Source of the DNA: Opitutia bacterium
GTDB taxonomy: Bacteria; Verrucomicrobiota; Verrucomicrobiia; Opitutales; UBA953
Reading direction: 5' to 3'
DNA: 64,000 bases
Assembly: GCA_003569165.1 (NCBI GenBank)
Contig: BGOI01000006.1
Location: 1-64,000 of the forward strand
Every line of letters begins with the position of its first letter. Position 1 is the first letter of the stretch. The position numbers were made by a program, and so were the translations under genes. Below, piece after piece: positions 35,115 through 43,398 of the stretch. The notes under the pieces were generated by a model. The model had not been told where the DNA came from and made no database searches. It saw only the letters and a program-made list of their open reading frames with translations.

Positions 35115-35142
35115 GGTAGGGACAGCACCACGTGCTGTCCTA
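35115..35142. repeat. Single-hairpin palindromic repeat (copy R1)
   Basis: GGTAG, then a 9-3-9 hairpin (arms GGACAGCAC and GTGCTGTCC around CAC), then TAGG. It begins two bases after the sulfatase stop. Copy R4 at 37063 has the same layout with a changed arm base pair. Confidence 0.8.
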
Positions 35143-35151
35143 GGCATCCTA

Positions 35152-35195
35152 GGTAGGGTCGGGACCGCGGCCGAGCAGGGATGCTCGGCCCTACC
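35152..35195. repeat. Double-hairpin palindromic repeat with shortened first hairpin (copy R2)
   Basis: GGTAG, a collapsed first hairpin (GGTCGGGACC), GC, a full 9-4-9 hairpin (GGCCGAGCA and TGCTCGGCC around GGGA), then CTACC pairing with the opening GGTAG. It lies just upstream of azoR. Confidence 0.85.
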
Positions 35196-35231
35196 CGTTG
35201 ACTCCCCGCTACCAGCGGATACCCTGTGCGC

Positions 35232-35837
35232 ATGAAAGTCCTGCACATCGACGCTTCTCCTCGCTCGGTAAGATCGGTGACCCGGAAGCTTTCCGCCGGC
35301 TTCATCCAGAACCTACGCCTGAAAGTCCCGGGCTTGCAGGTCACGCATCGCGACGTCGGTCATCACCCGCCGCCCTTCATCTCCGATGCCTGGGTCGGCG
35401 CGGCTTTCGCCCCGGCAGACCATGACGATCCGTCGATGAAAGGCGTGCTGCATCATTCTGATGCCCTTACGGCCGAGCTGCTCGCTTGCGATACGCTGCT
35501 CATCGCGACGCCGATGCATAACTTTTCCATTCCGGCCTGCCTCAAGGCATGGATTGATCAAGTGGTGCGTACCGATATGACCTTCAAGCTGACCGAAGAA
35601 GGCGTCGAGCCCCTGGTCAAAGGCAAGAAGGCCCTCATCGTCACTTCCCGCGGCGGCTTCGTGGCCGGCACGGACTTTGATTTTCAGGAGCCCTACCTGC
35701 GTAAAATCTTCGGCTTCATCGGCATCACCGACGTCACATTCGTACACGCCGAAGGAGTGAACAGCGGCGAGAAGGAACGCGAAGCCGCCATGATTCAGGC
35801 CTCCGCCAAACTCATCGAGTTGGCGCAGGGTTGGTAA
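35232..35837 (+). CDS. azoR: FMN-dependent NADH:quinone reductase/azoreductase
   Basis: A 201-residue flavodoxin-like-fold protein of the AzoR group, which reduces quinones and azo compounds with NAD(P)H and FMN. The FMN phosphate loop is HIDASPRSVRSVTRKL, ATPMHNFSIPACLKAWID is the family signature (AzoR proteins usually have PMYNF there), and TSRGGF forms the second flavin contact. The probable cellular role is quinone detoxification. The ATG at 35232 is chosen over an upstream GTG at 35226. It converges on the Gfo/Idh gene across repeat R3. Confidence 0.88.
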   Translation: MKVLHIDASPRSVRSVTRKLSAGFIQNLRLKVPGLQVTHRDVGHHPPPFISDAWVGAAFAPADHDDPSMKGVLHHSDALTAELLACDTLLIATPMHNFSIPACLKAWIDQVVRTDMTFKLTEEGVEPLVKGKKALIVTSRGGFVAGTDFDFQEPYLRKIFGFIGITDVTFVHAEGVNSGEKEREAAMIQASAKLIELAQGW

Positions 35838-35857
35838 GGGACGAACCCACTGCATCG

Positions 35858-35913
35858 GGTAGGGTTGACCATCCTTGGTCGACCGCGGCCGAGCAAGGAT
35901 GCTCGGCCCTACC
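35858..35913. repeat. Double-hairpin palindromic repeat (copy R3)
   Basis: A complete 56-base element: GGTAG (35858-35862), hairpin one with arms GGTTGACCA and TGGTCGACC around TCCT, GC, hairpin two with arms GGCCGAGCA and TGCTCGGCC around AGGA, then CTACC. Loop two is the reverse complement of loop one. It separates the convergent azoR and Gfo/Idh genes. Confidence 0.9.
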
Positions 35914-35918
35914 TAGGG

Positions 35919-37016
35919 TTAGCTGTACTTCAACTCCACCTTCTTGCCCGTCTTGATAGACTCGTAGATACCGTCGATGATGACCATGTCGCGACGGCCG
36001 ACTTCGCCGGTGCAGGTGACCTCGGTGCCGTTACGGAAGGCCTGAGCGACGCCGTCCATGTGACGCTGTTGTTGGCGGAAGATACCGAAGTCCAGTTTCC
36101 CCTTGGCGGAGGTCGAGATGTTGAGGTTACGGTAGCTGAACACGGGCCTTTCGCCCTTGAACCAGCCCTTGGCAGCTTCGGCGAATATCTCCGCCCGGTT
36201 GGCATCGTAGCCCGACCAGACGTCGGCGACGGCACCATTGGCAAACTCGAGTCGGAACTCGAGGGCCTGTTCGACCTCGACAAAGAGTTCAGGCTGGGTC
36301 TTCGGCAGTTCCTTGGCGGTAACGGAGATGGGATTGGCGTCGGCCGCCATGCAGACCCCCTGGATGGAATAGATGCCCATGTCCGTCAGCGCTCCGCCGC
36401 CAGCGAGCTTCTTCTCGATGCGCCAAGACTTGCGACGGAGTGTGTAGCCGTTGGCGCTCTTAATCTTCATGAACGGACCAAACTCCTGGGTCTTGGCCAA
36501 GCGGATGAGTTCCAGGTGATACGGATCGAAATGAAGACGATAGCCGATGGCGAGGCGCTTGCCGGCCTTCTTGCCCGCAGCGATCATCGTGTCGCACTCG
36601 GCGGCCGAAATGGCCATCGGCTTCTCGCAGATGACATGCTTACCGGCGCCGAAGGCATCGATAACGTTCTGACGGTGAACCCCCGGGGGCGTTACCACAT
36701 AGACGATGTCGATCGCCTTATTGGCGGCGACCTTGTCCCACTCCTCATACGAATAGATATTGGCTTCGTCGAAGCCGTGGAGTTTTGCGAGCTTTACGCC
36801 CTTCTCGCGCGTACCCGTGATCACCGCCACGAGCTTCACGTTCTTGGTCTCGAGCAGCGCCGGCGAGAGCTCGCCGTTGGAATAATTACCCAAGCCACAG
36901 AGCGCGAGGCCGAGCGGCTTGCCGCTGGACTCCGCCGCGCGCAGCGCCGGAGCGAGGGCATAACCGGCGGCCAGGCCGCCAAGGGTACCGAGGAAGGAAC
37001 GACGAGTAGGGCTCAT
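35919..37016 (-). CDS. Tat-exported Gfo/Idh/MocA family oxidoreductase
   Basis: A 365-residue NAD(P)-dependent sugar oxidoreductase. A twin-arginine signal (PTRRSFLGTLGGLAAGYALAPAL) means it is exported folded, probably with its cofactor bound. The Rossmann fold shows GLALCGLGNYSNGELSP and the conserved CEKPMA motif; IGYRLHFDPYHLELIRL resembles glucose-fructose oxidoreductase-like proteins. Such proteins act on sugars or sugar derivatives. The downstream genes on this strand (heme protein, ceramidase-like hydrolase) suggest a shared set of exported catabolic functions, but repeat R4 and an 82-base gap lie between. Confidence 0.92.
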   Translation of the reverse strand: MSPTRRSFLGTLGGLAAGYALAPALRAAESSGKPLGLALCGLGNYSNGELSPALLETKNVKLVAVITGTREKGVKLAKLHGFDEANIYSYEEWDKVAANKAIDIVYVVTPPGVHRQNVIDAFGAGKHVICEKPMAISAAECDTMIAAGKKAGKRLAIGYRLHFDPYHLELIRLAKTQEFGPFMKIKSANGYTLRRKSWRIEKKLAGGGALTDMGIYSIQGVCMAADANPISVTAKELPKTQPELFVEVEQALEFRLEFANGAVADVWSGYDANRAEIFAEAAKGWFKGERPVFSYRNLNISTSAKGKLDFGIFRQQQRHMDGVAQAFRNGTEVTCTGEVGRRDMVIIDGIYESIKTGKKVELKYS

Positions 37017-37062
37017 AGGGGTATGCCTTTTCTACCCCGCCCTCACCGCCCCGCAAGTGCAA

Positions 37063-37091
37063 GGTAGGGGCCAGCACCGCGTGCTGCCCTA
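37063..37091. repeat. Single-hairpin palindromic repeat (copy R4)
   Basis: GGTAG, then arms GGGCCAGCAC and GTGCTGCCC around CGC (one bulged C), then TAGGC. Relative to R1, an A-T pair in the stem is replaced by G-C, so pairing is kept. It lies between two minus-strand genes. Confidence 0.75.
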
Positions 37092-37098
37092 GGCTGCA

Positions 37099-39612
37099 TC
37101 ACTTCTCTCCCTTAAGATAAGCCAACAGGTCGGCCAGCTGCTGCTTCGATAGGCCCGCTTCAAGGCCGGCAGGCATCAGCGAGCTGGGTAATGATTCAAG
37201 CTTGGCGAGGTCTGAACGCAGGAGGGTCGCTTCGACGCCTAAAGGACCACGCAGGGTGATCGAGGTAGACGTGTCACCGACCAAGATGCCGCTGAGGACT
37301 CGTCCATCCTTGGCCTCGGCGAGATAAGCGGTGAAAGCCGGCGCGATCTCGGCGTCGGGGTTCACGATATGGAACAGGATGTTCTCCTTGGTCTGACGAC
37401 GGATGTCGAAGAGGTCCGGCCCGACGGCGTGCCCTTCCCGATCCAAGCGGTGACAGGTGGCGCAGACGGCATTGAAGACGACCCGACCATTCGCAGGCAC
37501 GGACGTCAGCGCCAAGGCCTTGGTGGCTTCGGCCAAGGCCTCCGGACGTGCCGAGACGGTGAGCAGACGCTCGGCTAGGGCCTTTACGGCCGGATCTTTG
37601 GCAGCGAGCACCTGACGTCGGCGGACGCCGGTAAAGGCGCTGGCGGGCAGGCGCTTGGCCTCCACGGCGGCCAGGACGCCCTTCACATGGAAGGGAACGC
37701 CCAGCAAGGCACCCAAGACGGCATCGCGTCGAGCCGGGGCGTATTGCGACCAACCGGCGAGAAGTGAGGCCGAGACATCGGCCTTAGGATAAGCGACCAC
37801 GGCCTTGAGCGCCGTAGCGGCAAGATCGGGGGCGGATTCATCCAAGGAGAGTTTGAGTAAGGCCTCACCTGCACGTTCCCACGGCAGACGGGCCATAAGC
37901 TTAACGGCGATGCTCCGCTCTTCGATCGATTTGGACTTATCCGTCGCAACGGAAGGTGACGATTCCAACAGCGTCTGAAAAGATGCCGGTAGGCCCGTGG
38001 CCTTGCGGCCTGCAATTGAAAGATAACCGTTCAGCAAAGCGAGGCGTACGGATTCGGGCGCGCCGCTGGCGACTTCAAGGTCGGCAGGCTTCGTGAGGGA
38101 ACCTCCAAGATAACCGAAGACTTCTGCTAAACCCGCGCCGACCTTGGCGTCATGAGGCAGCCCCACGAGCAAGGCCTGTAGGAACGCAGCCTCACGTCCA
38201 CCGATGCCGCTGAGCACGGCGTTGCGCATCCACTTATCCTCGGACTCACGTTTAGCCGCCGAAACGAGGGCTTGGGTCGCCGCGGGCGAGGCATCGTGTC
38301 CATGTTCGATGATCTGACGGAAGCCCACGCGGGGATTAGTTAATGATTTCTGCGGCTGCTGATTAGGAGTTTTCTCCGCCCTCACTCGCCAGATACGCCC
38401 GAGGGCCTTGCCCGTCTCGAAGTCAGTATGCTTACGCACTTCTTCCGGCAGGTAATCAGGGTGCTCGATGACCTTGCGATACATATCCGCGATATACATG
38501 GCACCCTCCGGCCCCTTGGTCAGGAAGACCGGACGGAACCAGTCATCGCGCGAGGCGAGGAACTCGCGACCCTGATAGAGCGGAGAGGCGGCGAAGGTCG
38601 CGCCTTTGGCCGTGAGCCGATCAGCGTGGACGAGGTTGCCGGTCGGATCGCACGAGAAGACGGCACCCACGCACTCCGGGGTGAGCAGCGACTTACCCTG
38701 CCAGACCTTGACGCCGCAGGCTGCGCTGAACGAACCGGCATGGCCGTCGGCAGTCGTGATATTCGAGCTGATCGGGAAAAGCCGGACGCCGTCATGGCCG
38801 CCGTTGATGCCGTTGAAGGCGTCGCGCTCATTACAATCCTGCACGGTCTCGCTGAAAGCCAGGCGGGGATTCCGTTTCAGCCACTTGGAATCGAAAACGA
38901 CATGCTGGACCGGCACGCGGTTCATGCAGATGAAGCGATTCCCGAAGACATCGAAGCTCATGCCATACTGAGACTTTCCGTCGACAAGTTCGACCTCAAG
39001 GGTCTTGGGATGGAAACGAATGTCCGACGTCATCTTGAGCGCCGGACGCTCGGGATGGGATGGACAGGTGACCGTGCCGCCACTCAAGCCGGCTGCGAGG
39101 TAGATTAGGCCATCAGGTCCAATGGTTGGGGCGTTGACACGCAGCTGCGTGCTGCCCGTCGTGGCGAAACCGGTCAGTAGCACCTTACGCTCGTCGGCGA
39201 CGCCGTCGCCGTCGTTATCCTTCAGGAAGAGCACATCCGGAGCGCAGGTGACGATGAGTCCCCCGCTCCACGGTAGCACGCCGTTGGGGAAGGTCAGCCC
39301 ATCCGCATACACGGTGCGCTTGTCCATACGTCCGTCACCATCGGTATCCTCGAGCAACGCGATGACGCCCGCGGGCTTCCCCCCTTCTTTCGGGCCGATC
39401 GGGTAGCCGCGGTTCTCAGCCACGAAGAGTCGACCCTTGGAGTCGAAGGCAATCGCACACGGCGAAGCCACCAAGGGCTCCGCGGCGACAAGTTCGACAC
39501 GCAGGCCAGGCGCAGCCTCAAAAGCCTTCAAGGCGTCCGCCGGAGAGAGCGGACTCGGCAGCGGCGCCGCGACGAGCGCGCCGGCGAACAGGATGGCGGC
39601 GGCGCGGATCAT
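37099..39612 (-). CDS. PVC-type CxxCH heme-binding protein (membrane-bound dehydrogenase-like)
   Basis: An 837-residue exported protein. After a signal peptide (MIRAAAILFAGALVAAPLP) comes a six-bladed propeller-like dehydrogenase domain (CAIAFDSKGRLFVAENRGYP, LLEDTDGDGRMDKRTVYADG, NAPTIGPDGLIYLAAG, NGINGGHDGVRLF). HEAT-like repeats follow (about 440-690), and near residue 730 a cytochrome c site CATCH with VGPDLFDIRRQ. This architecture is a hallmark of Planctomycetes and Verrucomicrobia, where it is thought to oxidise sugars or alcohols in the periplasm. The Asp-rich DxDxDG motifs suggest calcium binding. It overlaps the ceramidase-like gene upstream by four bases, so the two are co-translated. 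Heme attachment would need CcsBA. Confidence 0.93.
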   Translation of the reverse strand: MIRAAAILFAGALVAAPLPSPLSPADALKAFEAAPGLRVELVAAEPLVASPCAIAFDSKGRLFVAENRGYPIGPKEGGKPAGVIALLEDTDGDGRMDKRTVYADGLTFPNGVLPWSGGLIVTCAPDVLFLKDNDGDGVADERKVLLTGFATTGSTQLRVNAPTIGPDGLIYLAAGLSGGTVTCPSHPERPALKMTSDIRFHPKTLEVELVDGKSQYGMSFDVFGNRFICMNRVPVQHVVFDSKWLKRNPRLAFSETVQDCNERDAFNGINGGHDGVRLFPISSNITTADGHAGSFSAACGVKVWQGKSLLTPECVGAVFSCDPTGNLVHADRLTAKGATFAASPLYQGREFLASRDDWFRPVFLTKGPEGAMYIADMYRKVIEHPDYLPEEVRKHTDFETGKALGRIWRVRAEKTPNQQPQKSLTNPRVGFRQIIEHGHDASPAATQALVSAAKRESEDKWMRNAVLSGIGGREAAFLQALLVGLPHDAKVGAGLAEVFGYLGGSLTKPADLEVASGAPESVRLALLNGYLSIAGRKATGLPASFQTLLESSPSVATDKSKSIEERSIAVKLMARLPWERAGEALLKLSLDESAPDLAATALKAVVAYPKADVSASLLAGWSQYAPARRDAVLGALLGVPFHVKGVLAAVEAKRLPASAFTGVRRRQVLAAKDPAVKALAERLLTVSARPEALAEATKALALTSVPANGRVVFNAVCATCHRLDREGHAVGPDLFDIRRQTKENILFHIVNPDAEIAPAFTAYLAEAKDGRVLSGILVGDTSTSITLRGPLGVEATLLRSDLAKLESLPSSLMPAGLEAGLSKQQLADLLAYLKGEK

Positions 39613-41117
39613 TTCAGCTGCGGAGGTTGGTCACCGTAAGCCCACGGCTTGCCGGCGGGACCATTCGGACGCTCCGGCAGTTTGGCCGGCTTCATCTTCG
39701 CGGCGAGCTCGAGTCCGACGTTCATGAACTGCGTACCGGCGGTGATCTCGAGATTACTGTAGCTCGTCAGGCGCGTCTCGTACCCGCCACCGTTCGGCCC
39801 GAAGGCCTCTTCGTCTGGGACGTAACCGACGCAACCGTTGGCGAGCTCAACCGGGAAGGTCATGGGGAATCCGCTACGCTTCTTGAGTTGGAGTCCATAG
39901 GAGACAAAATACTCCGCAGGATTGGAGAGGCAGACCACCGGGCCAACCTGGATCGCCTGCACCTCGATCTCGACGTCGCGCTTCTTGGCGATGAGAGCAT
40001 CAAGCAGGAGCGTCTCCTTGGCCCAGACCCAATCCTTGTGGGCGACCGGCCCCTTGATGCGTTCGCGGGCTTCGACGACGCGCTCCGGGGCCGGAATACG
40101 ACGCTTCACGTCCCAAACCTTATGATCAGCGGCCAGCGGTACTTCGGCCGTACGGGTCTGCGACATACTGAGGAGGACCTTCAAAGCTTCGGCGCCCACT
40201 CGTCCGCCGACGAACTGCGACCAGTCGTCGGACGCCGGATTGGCCTTGGGGTCGAGGTTGTTGACCTGGGTCACGTCGCCACAGGCTCCCTGCAGGAAGA
40301 CGACCTTGGTGTCGGCCCCGTAATAGCCGCGGATGACCTTCTCGGTGTAGTAGATCCAGTTCGCGCCGATGCCGTCGGAGTTCGTGGTGGCGTGGCAGGA
40401 GAAGTTGACGATGCATCCCGAGAGTTTTCCGTCCGCGCACCAGACGCCGATCACACCCACTTCGTCGTCAATCGGATTGGCGAACGCGACCACATCGGGA
40501 TTGTTCTTACCCGGATGCGAGAAGGTCAGGCCGTTCTTCATGCGGAGCCGGCGATTGAACGCCACCTGGCTCTCATGGCCGACGCCGTAACCGACCGTGA
40601 CCGCGGCCTTAGAATGATCGGCGGCGACGATGGCCTCGACCGTGGCGGCGATAACCTTCTTGAGATAGCCCGCATCTGCGCAGGAGGACTTCTGATAGGC
40701 CAATTCCTGGATCTCGGCGGAAGCGTGGTCGAACTCGCCGGGCAGGATCATCCCGATCGGTCCGGAAGAATGCGAATGCGAGGCGCCGATCATCACGTCG
40801 GCGATGCCCGTCGCGGCCTTCACCAAGGCGCGGATCTCCTGCACCGTCTCGCGCCGGATCATCAGGGCATCGATGCCGACGAGCGCCACGCGCTTCTGGC
40901 CATCGTCGAAGACGCTCGCACGCACCTTGCACGGGTCGTGGATCTTCTTCGAGTAGACCTTCCCATAGTTACCCGGGACTTCCATACCGATGTCGGGAGT
41001 GATGTCGCGATCGGCGAACCCCACGCGGACGCCGGGCTTGGCCGGCGGCGCGGCGAAGACCGTGACGGAAGCCAGGACCAGCAGGACATGGCAGAAACCG
41101 AGTCGGGGAGAACTCAT
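39609..41117 (-). CDS. Exported neutral ceramidase-like hydrolase
   Basis: A 502-residue exported protein resembling the N-terminal domain of neutral/alkaline ceramidases: VGFADRDITPDIGMEVPGNYG, LVGIDALMIRRET, IGASHSHSSGP (metal-binding His pair), NFSCHATTN and LQGACGDVTQVNNLD. True ceramidases are longer and have an extra immunoglobulin-like domain, so the substrate may be another amide or ester. The start at 41117 gives the signal peptide MSSPRLGFCHVLLVLASVTVFAA; an open reading extending back through the palindrome at 41167 is judged non-coding. Its stop overlaps the heme protein start. Confidence 0.85.
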   Translation of the reverse strand: MSSPRLGFCHVLLVLASVTVFAAPPAKPGVRVGFADRDITPDIGMEVPGNYGKVYSKKIHDPCKVRASVFDDGQKRVALVGIDALMIRRETVQEIRALVKAATGIADVMIGASHSHSSGPIGMILPGEFDHASAEIQELAYQKSSCADAGYLKKVIAATVEAIVAADHSKAAVTVGYGVGHESQVAFNRRLRMKNGLTFSHPGKNNPDVVAFANPIDDEVGVIGVWCADGKLSGCIVNFSCHATTNSDGIGANWIYYTEKVIRGYYGADTKVVFLQGACGDVTQVNNLDPKANPASDDWSQFVGGRVGAEALKVLLSMSQTRTAEVPLAADHKVWDVKRRIPAPERVVEARERIKGPVAHKDWVWAKETLLLDALIAKKRDVEIEVQAIQVGPVVCLSNPAEYFVSYGLQLKKRSGFPMTFPVELANGCVGYVPDEEAFGPNGGGYETRLTSYSNLEITAGTQFMNVGLELAAKMKPAKLPERPNGPAGKPWAYGDQPPQLK

Positions 41118-41166
41118 AGGGGTAAGAGCAGATATGTCGGGGGGAAGTTCCCGGGACAAGCCCACG

Positions 41167-41224
41167 AGTACGGGGTCAGACCGCTTCTGAAGGATATCGG
41201 TCAGAAGCGGTCTGACCCCGTACT
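41167..41224. repeat. Perfect inverted repeat, 24-base arms
   Basis: Arms 41167-41190 and 41201-41224 are perfect reverse complements around a 10-base loop. The core GGGGTCAGACC resembles palindromes I associate with REP/RAYT-type elements; that link is from memory. No transposase gene is in the window. Confidence 0.9.
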
Positions 41225-41241
41225 GTATCCTTGCATCGATG

Positions 41242-41258
41242 GGTAGGGTCGGGACCGC
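41242..41258. repeat. Truncated GGTAG-type repeat (copy R5)
   Basis: GGTAG, GGTCGGGACC, GC: identical to the first 17 bases of copy R2, after which the element is lost. Confidence 0.7.
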
Positions 41259-41426
41259 GTCACGACATAGTTGTTTCGATTCATGGGGCAGGGGCAGGGA
41301 CACGGACATGCCTCGACACGCGGGGGCAGACTCAGGGACTGTCTCGGCAGTTTCTTGCCCCAGCGTCTGACTCTGTCCCTAAGCATTGGAACCTGTCGCT
41401 GCCCCCGTCCCTGCCTCTTGAGCTCA

Positions 41427-41482
41427 GGTAGGGCTGACCACCCTTGGTCAGCCGCGGTTGAGCGGGGGCGCTCAACCCTACC
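41427..41482. repeat. Double-hairpin palindromic repeat (copy R6)
   Basis: A complete 56-base element with both stems perfect: arms GGCTGACCA/TGGTCAGCC around CCCT, GC, then arms GGTTGAGCG/CGCTCAACC around GGGG, closed by GGTAG and CTACC. Arm sequences differ from R3, but all pairs are kept. Confidence 0.9.
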
Positions 41483-41522
41483 TCAAACAGCCACAACCCT
41501 AGCTCTGGCCCTACCTCGGGCT

Positions 41523-42827
41523 CTATTCGTGAAACCTGATTCGCGGCTTGGGGCCGTCTTTCGCCTTCGGGAGTCGCTCGGGATCGGTCAGGGAGGCGCC
41601 AGACTGGAGCTCGGACTTACCCTTCCATTCTCGTTCGAAGCCGGTGCTAGCGAGGCGCACGGCATCTCGTCCGAGCTTATGATTCAAGGCGTCGACGGCC
41701 TTCATGAGCCGATCCTTGTTCGGGTCAGCCGCACCGCCCATGCCCGGCAAGGACGGCTGCACCACATCCGCTGGCGTCAGGCCATGGAGCATCACCCCTG
41801 CCCGCTTGTAAAGATAACCGTCGCGACGCACGCGCGCCAAGGCCCGCGAGGCCGCGGCGCAGATCGCGCGGGCATCATCGGTCGGCGGATCGAGCGGCTC
41901 AGCCTCGTCCCCGCGATACTGTTCCTGATCGATGCGATGCTGATTCGTGCGAATAAACACGACGATCGATGAAGCGACCAGGCCATCCTCACGTAGCTTC
42001 TCGGCCGCGCGGGCCGCGTGCGAAGCGATGGCTTCGGAGAGCTCATGCGCGTCGGAGATGGGTCGTCCGAAGGAACGGGAGACCAGCACGCTCTTTCGCG
42101 GGCCGGCGTCCTCGACGATATCATGGCAGGAGATGCCGCGTAACTCGAGGGCGAGACGTTCACCGACCACGCCAGCGATGCGACGGATGAAACCCGGATC
42201 GGCTTCGGCGAGGTCGATCGCGGAGAGGATGCCATGGGAACGGAGGCGCGACGCCAGTCCAGGGCCGACGCCCCAAACGTCTTCCGCTTCGACGCCACGC
42301 AGGAAGGCGTTGCGACCCTCCACCGAGGCCGGCACGACAATCACGCCGCCGCTGGCCTTGTCGGTCTTCGCCCGCTCATTGGCCAGTTTACAAAGTACCT
42401 TCGTCGGGGCCATTCCCAACGAAATCGGGATGCCCGTACGTTTGAGGACATCGGCGCGGATACGCAGCCCGAGGGCCTTCGCATCGGCATCCGGCATATC
42501 AGGGAAGCCCAGGAATGCTTCGTCGACCGAATAGACCTCGAGGTCGCGCGCCTGTTCGCCCAGCGCGGCCATCACGCGTTCGGAGAAATCGCCGTAGACC
42601 TCGAAGTTGGAAGAGAAGATCCGGACGCCATGGGCTTCGCAAGTACGACGGACTTCGAAATACGGCGCGCCCATCGGGATACCGAGCGCCTTGGCTTCGG
42701 ACGAACGCGCGACCACGCAGCCGTCGTTATTCGAGAGCACCACGATCGGCACGCCGATCAATGACGGATCCAGCGCGCGCTCGCACGAGGCGTAGAAATT
42801 ATTACAGTCGGCGAGGGCGCGGAGCAT
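41523..42827 (-). CDS. umuC: Y-family DNA polymerase V subunit UmuC
   Basis: UmuC is the catalytic subunit of error-prone translesion polymerase V, induced after DNA damage. The 434-residue chain starts with [16 protein letters not shown] (catalytic Asp and steric-gate region), then [25 protein letters not shown] with the second catalytic acidic residues, [17 protein letters not shown], helix-hairpin-helix [17 protein letters not shown] and a little-finger domain. The start at 42827 matches the UmuC N-terminus; a longer frame reaches into umuD and is rejected. It follows umuD by four bases. Confidence 0.96.
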
Positions 42828-42831
42828 GGCG

Positions 42832-43254
42832 TCAGCAGCGGCGCACGACGGCGACCACTGTTCCCCAGATACGGCATTCCGGCGTGAAAGGCAACGACCA
42901 GCCGGGCCAGCGCGGACTGTCGGCCCGCAGACTCCAGGCACCCGCAGCATCGCGTTCGAGATGCTTCACCGTGAATTCGCCACCGACCTCGGCGACCACG
43001 ATTGTCCCCGCACGAGCCGAGAGCGATTTATCCACCACGATGAGGTCACCGGTGAGGATGCCCGCGCCCGACATCGAATCGCCGTCGACCCGCAGGAAGA
43101 AGGTCGAGATCGGATTGCGCACCACGTGCTCGTTCAGATCGAGCCGACGCTCCATATGGTCATCAGCCGGCGACGGGAATCCCGCGACCGCGCGGGACCC
43201 GAGCAGCGGCAAGGCCAACGGCCGCCGGGCTTCGAACCCCTGCAAAGTACGCAT
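42832..43254 (-). CDS. umuD: SOS mutagenesis protein UmuD (S24-family autoprotease)
   Basis: UmuD cleaves itself when RecA filaments form, and the cleaved form joins UmuC to make polymerase V. With the ATG at 43254 the protein has 140 residues. The cleavage site is Ala24-Gly25 (SRAVAGF), the nucleophile Ser60 ([10 protein letters not shown]) and the general base Lys97 (FTVKHLE). These are the same positions as in E. coli UmuD, which supports this start over the GTG at 43281 or the ATG at 43263. A perfect 24-base palindrome ends seven bases upstream. Confidence 0.95.
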
Positions 43255-43261
43255 ATCCAAC

Positions 43262-43285
43262 ATAAGTGAACGGATGTTCACTTAT
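43262..43285 (-). promoter_or_regulatory. Putative LexA (SOS) operator upstream of umuDC
   Basis: ATAAGTGAAC and GTTCACTTAT are perfect 10-base arms around GGAT. The GAAC-N4-GTTC core resembles the Gram-positive type of SOS box. Position directly before umuD makes a LexA operator likely. No lexA lies in the window. Confidence 0.75.
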
Positions 43286-43340
43286 CAGGGAAAGGCTTCA
43301 AGGAGAAAGCATCAGATGCAGTCCTAACCCTGCATCTCAA

Positions 43341-43398
43341 GGTAGGGTCGAGCATCCCTGCTCGACCGCACGGCCGGCCAAGGATGGCCAGCCCTACC
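43341..43398. repeat. Double-hairpin palindromic repeat (copy R7)
   Basis: A 58-base element: GGTAG, arms GGTCGAGCA/TGCTCGACC around TCCC, linker GCAC, arms GGCCGGCCA/TGGCCAGCC around AGGA (one mismatch), CTACC. It sits between umuD and the cysK terminator. Confidence 0.88.

Follow-up and report, generated by a model that had tools for sequence, protein, structure and literature searches.

The window analyzed here, 64 kb of DNA from an Opitutia bacterium, carries seven palindromic elements, marked by GGTAGGG matches on the forward strand at positions 35115, 35152, 35858, 37063, 41242, 41427, and 43341 (R1 to R7), and all seven are located between genes. Three of them, R3 (35858 to 35913), R6 (41427 to 41482), and R7 (43341 to 43398), have exactly the coordinates and layout given in a preliminary description: GGTAG, a hairpin with 9-bp arms and a 4-nt loop, a spacer (GC, or GCAC in R7), a second such hairpin, and CTACC. 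In these three, the first loop is pyrimidine and the second purine, with the second loop the exact reverse complement of the first in R3 and one base off in R6 and R7, also as described. Such exact complementarity is present in only 6 of 43 copies across the genome, and near-complementary loops follow simply from the presence of one REP in two inverted copies.

R3, on the forward strand, is a class I REP doublet, or REPIN, with a left half at 35858 to 35885 and an inverted right half at 35886 to 35913; the two halves match the left and right REPs of a RAYT gene on contig C1 of the same genome (C1:465330). R7 is a second class I doublet in the opposite orientation, on the reverse strand, with its left half at 43371 to 43398 and its right half at 43341 to 43368, separated by a 4-nt spacer. 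R6 (forward strand) is a class II doublet composed of GGTTGAGCGCCCTCGCTCAACC and GGCTGACCACCCTTGGTCAGCC. Its cognate RAYT lineage (beta) is present in congeners only (G028, G008, G024, G004, G064, and G001), and was not found in the metagenome-assembled genome that holds the window, which is 86.6% complete.

R1 and R4 had been considered single-hairpin relatives of these doublets. Both are indeed single REPs, but they belong to two other RAYTs, both on contig C3, and not to the same family. R1 (35115 to 35144, forward strand) consists of GGTAG, a 9-3-9 hairpin, and TAGG, and its hairpin, GGACAGCACCACGTGCTGTCC, is identical at either end of the RAYT at C3:76288 and of the orthologues of that gene. 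R4 (37063 to 37093, forward strand) is of the class that flanks the RAYT at C3:71723, with one additional C in the left arm; in G013 and G015, the orthologous REPs match the class sequence exactly. R5 (41242 to 41270, forward strand; GGTAGGGTCGGGACCGCGTCACGACATAG), previously taken for a truncated copy, is a full single REP of another class, with 15 exact matches in about 0.6 Mb of its own genome (stretches around copies, of which a few loci overlap). It folds into a weak hairpin with one mismatch, and the class is an orphan for which we found no RAYT. The collapsed first hairpin once ascribed to R2 (35152 to 35195, forward strand) is instead the first 18 nt of an R5-type REP, with GGTAGGGTCGGGACCGCG common to R2 and R5, and the remainder is a class I right half. 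Since R5-type REPs also occupy the orthologous site in two relatives (GGTAGGGTCGGGACCGCGTCACGACCTA in G008 and GGTAGGGCCGGAAGCGCGTCACGACATAG in G004), R2 is best read as a chimeric doublet joined at CCGCG. Rather than a single family, the seven elements represent five or more REP classes, and different RAYTs serve most of these. A search of the window against Rfam gave no match above the gathering threshold.

Folded as single-stranded DNA, R3, R6, and R7 adopt the described structure, a closing 5-bp stem around two 9-bp hairpins, with far better stability than shuffled sequences (z scores of -6.7, -5.8, and -4.7, respectively). RNA folding is also strong; as RNA, R3 is almost balanced between the two-hairpin form and a single long hairpin, which is the behavior predicted when a hairpin is repeated in inverted orientation. 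The proposal that changes in the arms preserve pairing was borne out in 29 distinct 56-nt copies from three genomes, where 98.7% of pair cells hold standard pairs, compared with 92.2% after shuffling. Two-sided changes occur in 12 of 23 pairs (4.3 +/- 1.1 in shuffles), and pairing drops to 18 to 42% when partners are slid by one to three columns; these column shuffles and slid controls only partly remove relatedness among copies. The conserved pairing shows that the hairpins are under constraint and is compatible with either DNA or RNA as the constrained strand. On the left-to-right strand of the 56-nt copies, 18 cells hold G-T and 2 hold A-C, which hints, weakly because many copies are related, that this strand is the one that folds.

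Further copies are abundant across the genome. We counted doublets with an exact pattern and a reversed control instead of a covariance model: GGTAGGG-N14-44-CCCTACC matches 62 doublets in the genome of the window (2.03 Mb in 37 contigs), and the reversed pattern matches none. With a similar pattern, 33 of the 37 genomes of the genus yield 3 to 71 doublets each, whereas 20 genomes from other families of the order yield almost none. GGTAG is invariant in all 29 distinct copies, in part by construction, as the collecting pattern fixes GGTAGGG; the same foot is also seen in REPs that flank RAYTs.

Each doublet consists of two inverted GTAG-type REPs placed head-to-head, 2 to 4 bp apart, with their GTAG feet facing outward. 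Read from the foot inward, the halves are two versions of one REP, GGTAGGGNNGACCATCCTTGGTCNNCCG on the left and GGTAGGGNNGAGCATCCCTGCTCNNCCG on the right. Among 65 doublets typed in about 0.6 Mb of the genome, 52 are left-right, 2 are left-left, and none is right-right; the remainder are of other or mixed classes. A co-occurring RAYT, suggested as something to look for, is present as well, in the form of four genes. The class I RAYT (C1:465330-465704) sits between two 56-bp class I copies (C1:465250-465305 and 465914-465969); its upstream REP, GGCCAACCATCCTTGGTCGGCC, is the left half of the doublet, and its outward-facing downstream REP, GGCCGAGCATCCCTGCTCGGCC, is the right half. The relative in G004 has the same arrangement of left and right flanking REPs. 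The class I protein scores 82.2 bits against NF047646 (curated cutoff, 80), and the other three RAYTs of the genome score slightly below the cutoff (69.5 to 78.1 bits). Its HLH motif and tyrosine are intact, and an HLH/HVH-type motif and the Tyr are kept across the aligned RAYT set. The closest named relative of a RAYT from this genome, 83% identical, is in a metagenome-assembled genome labeled "uncultured Opitutae bacterium." Adjacent to the class I RAYT gene on its downstream side (locus L038, approximately C1:465050-465300) lies a tandem array of about seven units of roughly 40 bp, in which every unit combines a class I right-half REP with a CGAGGCAGCTTG-like linker.

These results identify the double hairpins, with a probability of about 0.93, as REPINs, or BIME units: nonautonomous mobile elements of RAYT/TnpA-REP, a Y1-type HUH enzyme. 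They share several features that define such units, namely, a GTAG foot, many intergenic copies, an inverted pair as the unit, and a cognate RAYT with the same REPs. The decisive evidence is the class I RAYT between two class I copies, as one of its flanking REPs corresponds to the left half of the element and the other to the differing right half. Most simply, the doublet can be seen as a RAYT element (REPtron) of which only the ends remain: the RAYT gene lies between a left-end and a right-end REP, and the doublet looks like those ends joined without the gene. This origin has been proposed for REPINs (PMC3116915). TnpA-REP recognizes GTAG plus a hairpin in single-stranded DNA and cuts at a nearby CT (PMC8266576). 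By analogy, binding of the RAYT to the folded single-stranded DNA would rely on GTAG and the hairpin, cleavage would occur at CT beside the foot, and the excised strand would be transferred to a new intergenic site. The flanks of the copies share a loose CTGYMTYR consensus on both sides, beside the foot and including CT; it is compatible with a cut site or a target preference, but this is only suggestive. The doublets have very probably been copied around the genome in this manner by matching RAYTs encoded in the same genome or genus, although we infer the movement, the cut site, and the single-stranded route from the likeness to characterized systems.

RAYT lineage and REP class correspond across the genus. 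We compared 43 RAYTs, almost all of which come from the genus; both flanking REPs were recovered for 33 of them. Protein similarity correlates with the similarity of flanking-REP hairpins (Mantel rho, 0.51; 0 of 2,000 permutations; null maximum, 0.22), where several RAYTs are orthologues at one locus and so are not independent. They form about ten clusters, each with its own REP pair, and the mapping of cluster to class is clean. In class I copy number, first and third place among 55 genomes go to the two in which a close class I RAYT was found. The link is not strict, as six other genomes hold 9 to 28 class I left REPs although their assemblies show no such RAYT, possibly through gene loss or assembly breaks at REP arrays. 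We suggest only tentatively, as a doubtful extension, that many RAYTs of the genus use two different end hairpins and that a doublet must be left plus right with one active strand (the RAYT coding strand, on which drift in class I stems leaves G-T rather than A-C mismatches, 18 versus 2 cells). If so, the roughly ten lineages, taken with their end pairs, would amount to a code, open to reading, by which transposase and hairpin recognize each other.

The presence of copies varies between close species. Between the same two genes as R3, G021 and G013 have an orthologous copy whereas G008 and G004 have none, and a copy at C9:40659 of the window's genome is missing in G012 and G015. Copies near each other are more often identical (34% of pairs less than 50 kb apart versus 5% of other pairs; 0 of 5,000 permutations), which points to local spread or gene conversion. 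REPs are likewise concentrated close to their gene in Marinomonas (PMC8266576). Dense clusters of class I doublets with common arm variants lie at C9:25612-47500 and C1:437035-465969; the C9 cluster yielded no RAYT.

The preliminary description listed a REP-like mobile element together with an attenuator, an mRNA 3'-end stabilizer, and a DNA-binding site, and only the first of these found support, given the many unrelated contexts of the copies and their even orientation. The strongest competing explanation is that these are RNA elements selected by the host at gene ends (terminator, attenuator, or 3'-end stabilizer), with pairing kept for RNA function. All 49 copies examined with a simple gene caller are intergenic, with 27 in tandem, 18 in convergent, and 3 in divergent gaps (space-weighted shares, approximately 59, 23, and 17%), so that copies are scarce where promoters lie. 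This placement would suit an RNA element, as would the strong RNA folding and the 18 retained G-T cells, but a tolerated parasite is likewise expected to avoid promoters and genes. Moreover, the copies have no bias in orientation relative to flanking genes (15 versus 12), the element includes no T-tract, its presence differs between close species, and its sequence is itself explained by the RAYT flanks. Left-to-right orientation relative to local GC skew is also exactly even (12/12 and 14/14). The placement and absent orientation bias are easier to reconcile with a mobile element that the host tolerates than with an RNA signal of fixed orientation, and we consider the RNA explanation improbable.

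Still less probable, at a very low level, is an origin as MITEs of a conventional DDE insertion sequence, with GGTAGGG as the terminal inverted repeat. Small size and terminal inverted repeats are in keeping with such elements. However, the cognate gene between the ends encodes a Y1/HUH RAYT, both halves form hairpins of their own with a GTAG foot, and inspection by eye of the sequence flanking 53 copies revealed no evident target-site duplication. Neither clean empty sites nor insertion junctions were obtained at the orthologous gaps compared, because the intergenic regions are reshuffled mosaics. Chance palindromes or an assembly artifact, conceivable in a high-GC genome assembled from a metagenome, have a negligible probability and are already refuted by the controls, with no match to the reversed pattern in the same genome, recurrence of the family in 33 of the 37 genomes from the genus, and covariation far above the slid controls.

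The REPIN/RAYT system identified here resembles that of Pseudomonas fluorescens SBW25 (PMC3116915), where inverted REP doublets are the replicating unit, several REP groups each lie beside their own RAYT, and ordered tandem clusters occur. It differs in that the halves of a doublet are distinct from each other (left end versus right end) and in its spacers, which are 2 to 4 bp here, whereas SBW25 doublets lie 71 to 110 bp apart; with spacers this short, each half can fold separately inside the closing GGTAG/CTACC stem. GTAG REP heterodimers and REPtrons have been described (PMC3733652), and GTAG-17 of Opitutus terrae, a member of the same bacterial class by name, shares, as far as its description goes, the tag, the head-to-head arrangement, and a very short spacer (1 to 2 bp). 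As with the y-z1 and y-z2 BIMEs and TnpA-REP of E. coli (PMC8266576), there is a GTAG foot, pairs are heterotypic and inverted, and the RAYT is mostly single copy and beside its REPs, but stems here are without the internal AA/GC bulge, and many RAYT/REP systems coexist. REPs of Pseudomonas and Stenotrophomonas (PMC3686654) similarly follow in class the RAYT that they flank, with copy number tending to follow the presence of the cognate RAYT; in the genus studied here, the left and right REPs of a RAYT differ and match the two doublet halves.

GTAG REPs, head-to-head heterodimers, the short-spacer dimers of O. terrae, RAYT-flanking REPs, several REPtrons per genome, and local clusters have thus all been described (PMC3733652, PMC3116915, PMC3686654, PMC8266576), and the elements in the window are a clean, fresh example of this known system and not a new type of element. 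With them, a mobile system that is well described but has been sampled little now reaches an uncultured genus of the Opitutae type, whose many coexisting RAYT/REP pairs provide natural material for learning how RAYTs distinguish their hairpins. The elements also support the published view of REPINs as RAYT elements reduced to their ends and help explain the strong reshuffling of intergenic gaps between these species. For the window, a regulatory puzzle is replaced by a tested, ordinary explanation.

Other repeats and sites were noticed in the course of the analysis. Positions 41167 to 41224 of the window form a near-perfect 58-bp palindrome (AGTACGGGGTCAGACCGCTTCTGAAGGAT/ATC...), with a second copy at L027:15713. 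Its GGGGTCAG motif agrees with GGGGWSAS, a motif of the TIR-flanked relatives of RAYTs (TIRYTs), and larger transposases (approximately 310 to 330 aa) in relatives (L052, L057, L058, and L060) are flanked by GGGGTCAGGCCG repeats. At 43262 to 43283, directly upstream of an umuDC-like pair (Peptidase_S24 and IMS genes), is a palindrome, TAAGTGAAC-GGAT-GTTCACTTA, that looks like a putative SOS operator of the GAAC-N4-GTTC kind. A nonpalindromic repeat, AAAGGGAGACCGG(AAACCGG), occurs beside many REP copies, for example at L027 and L029, with 26 matches, some overlapping, in about 0.6 Mb of the window's genome. A further hairpin class, GATGCGATGACATCGCATCCG, has 17 matches in the DNA examined from this genome.
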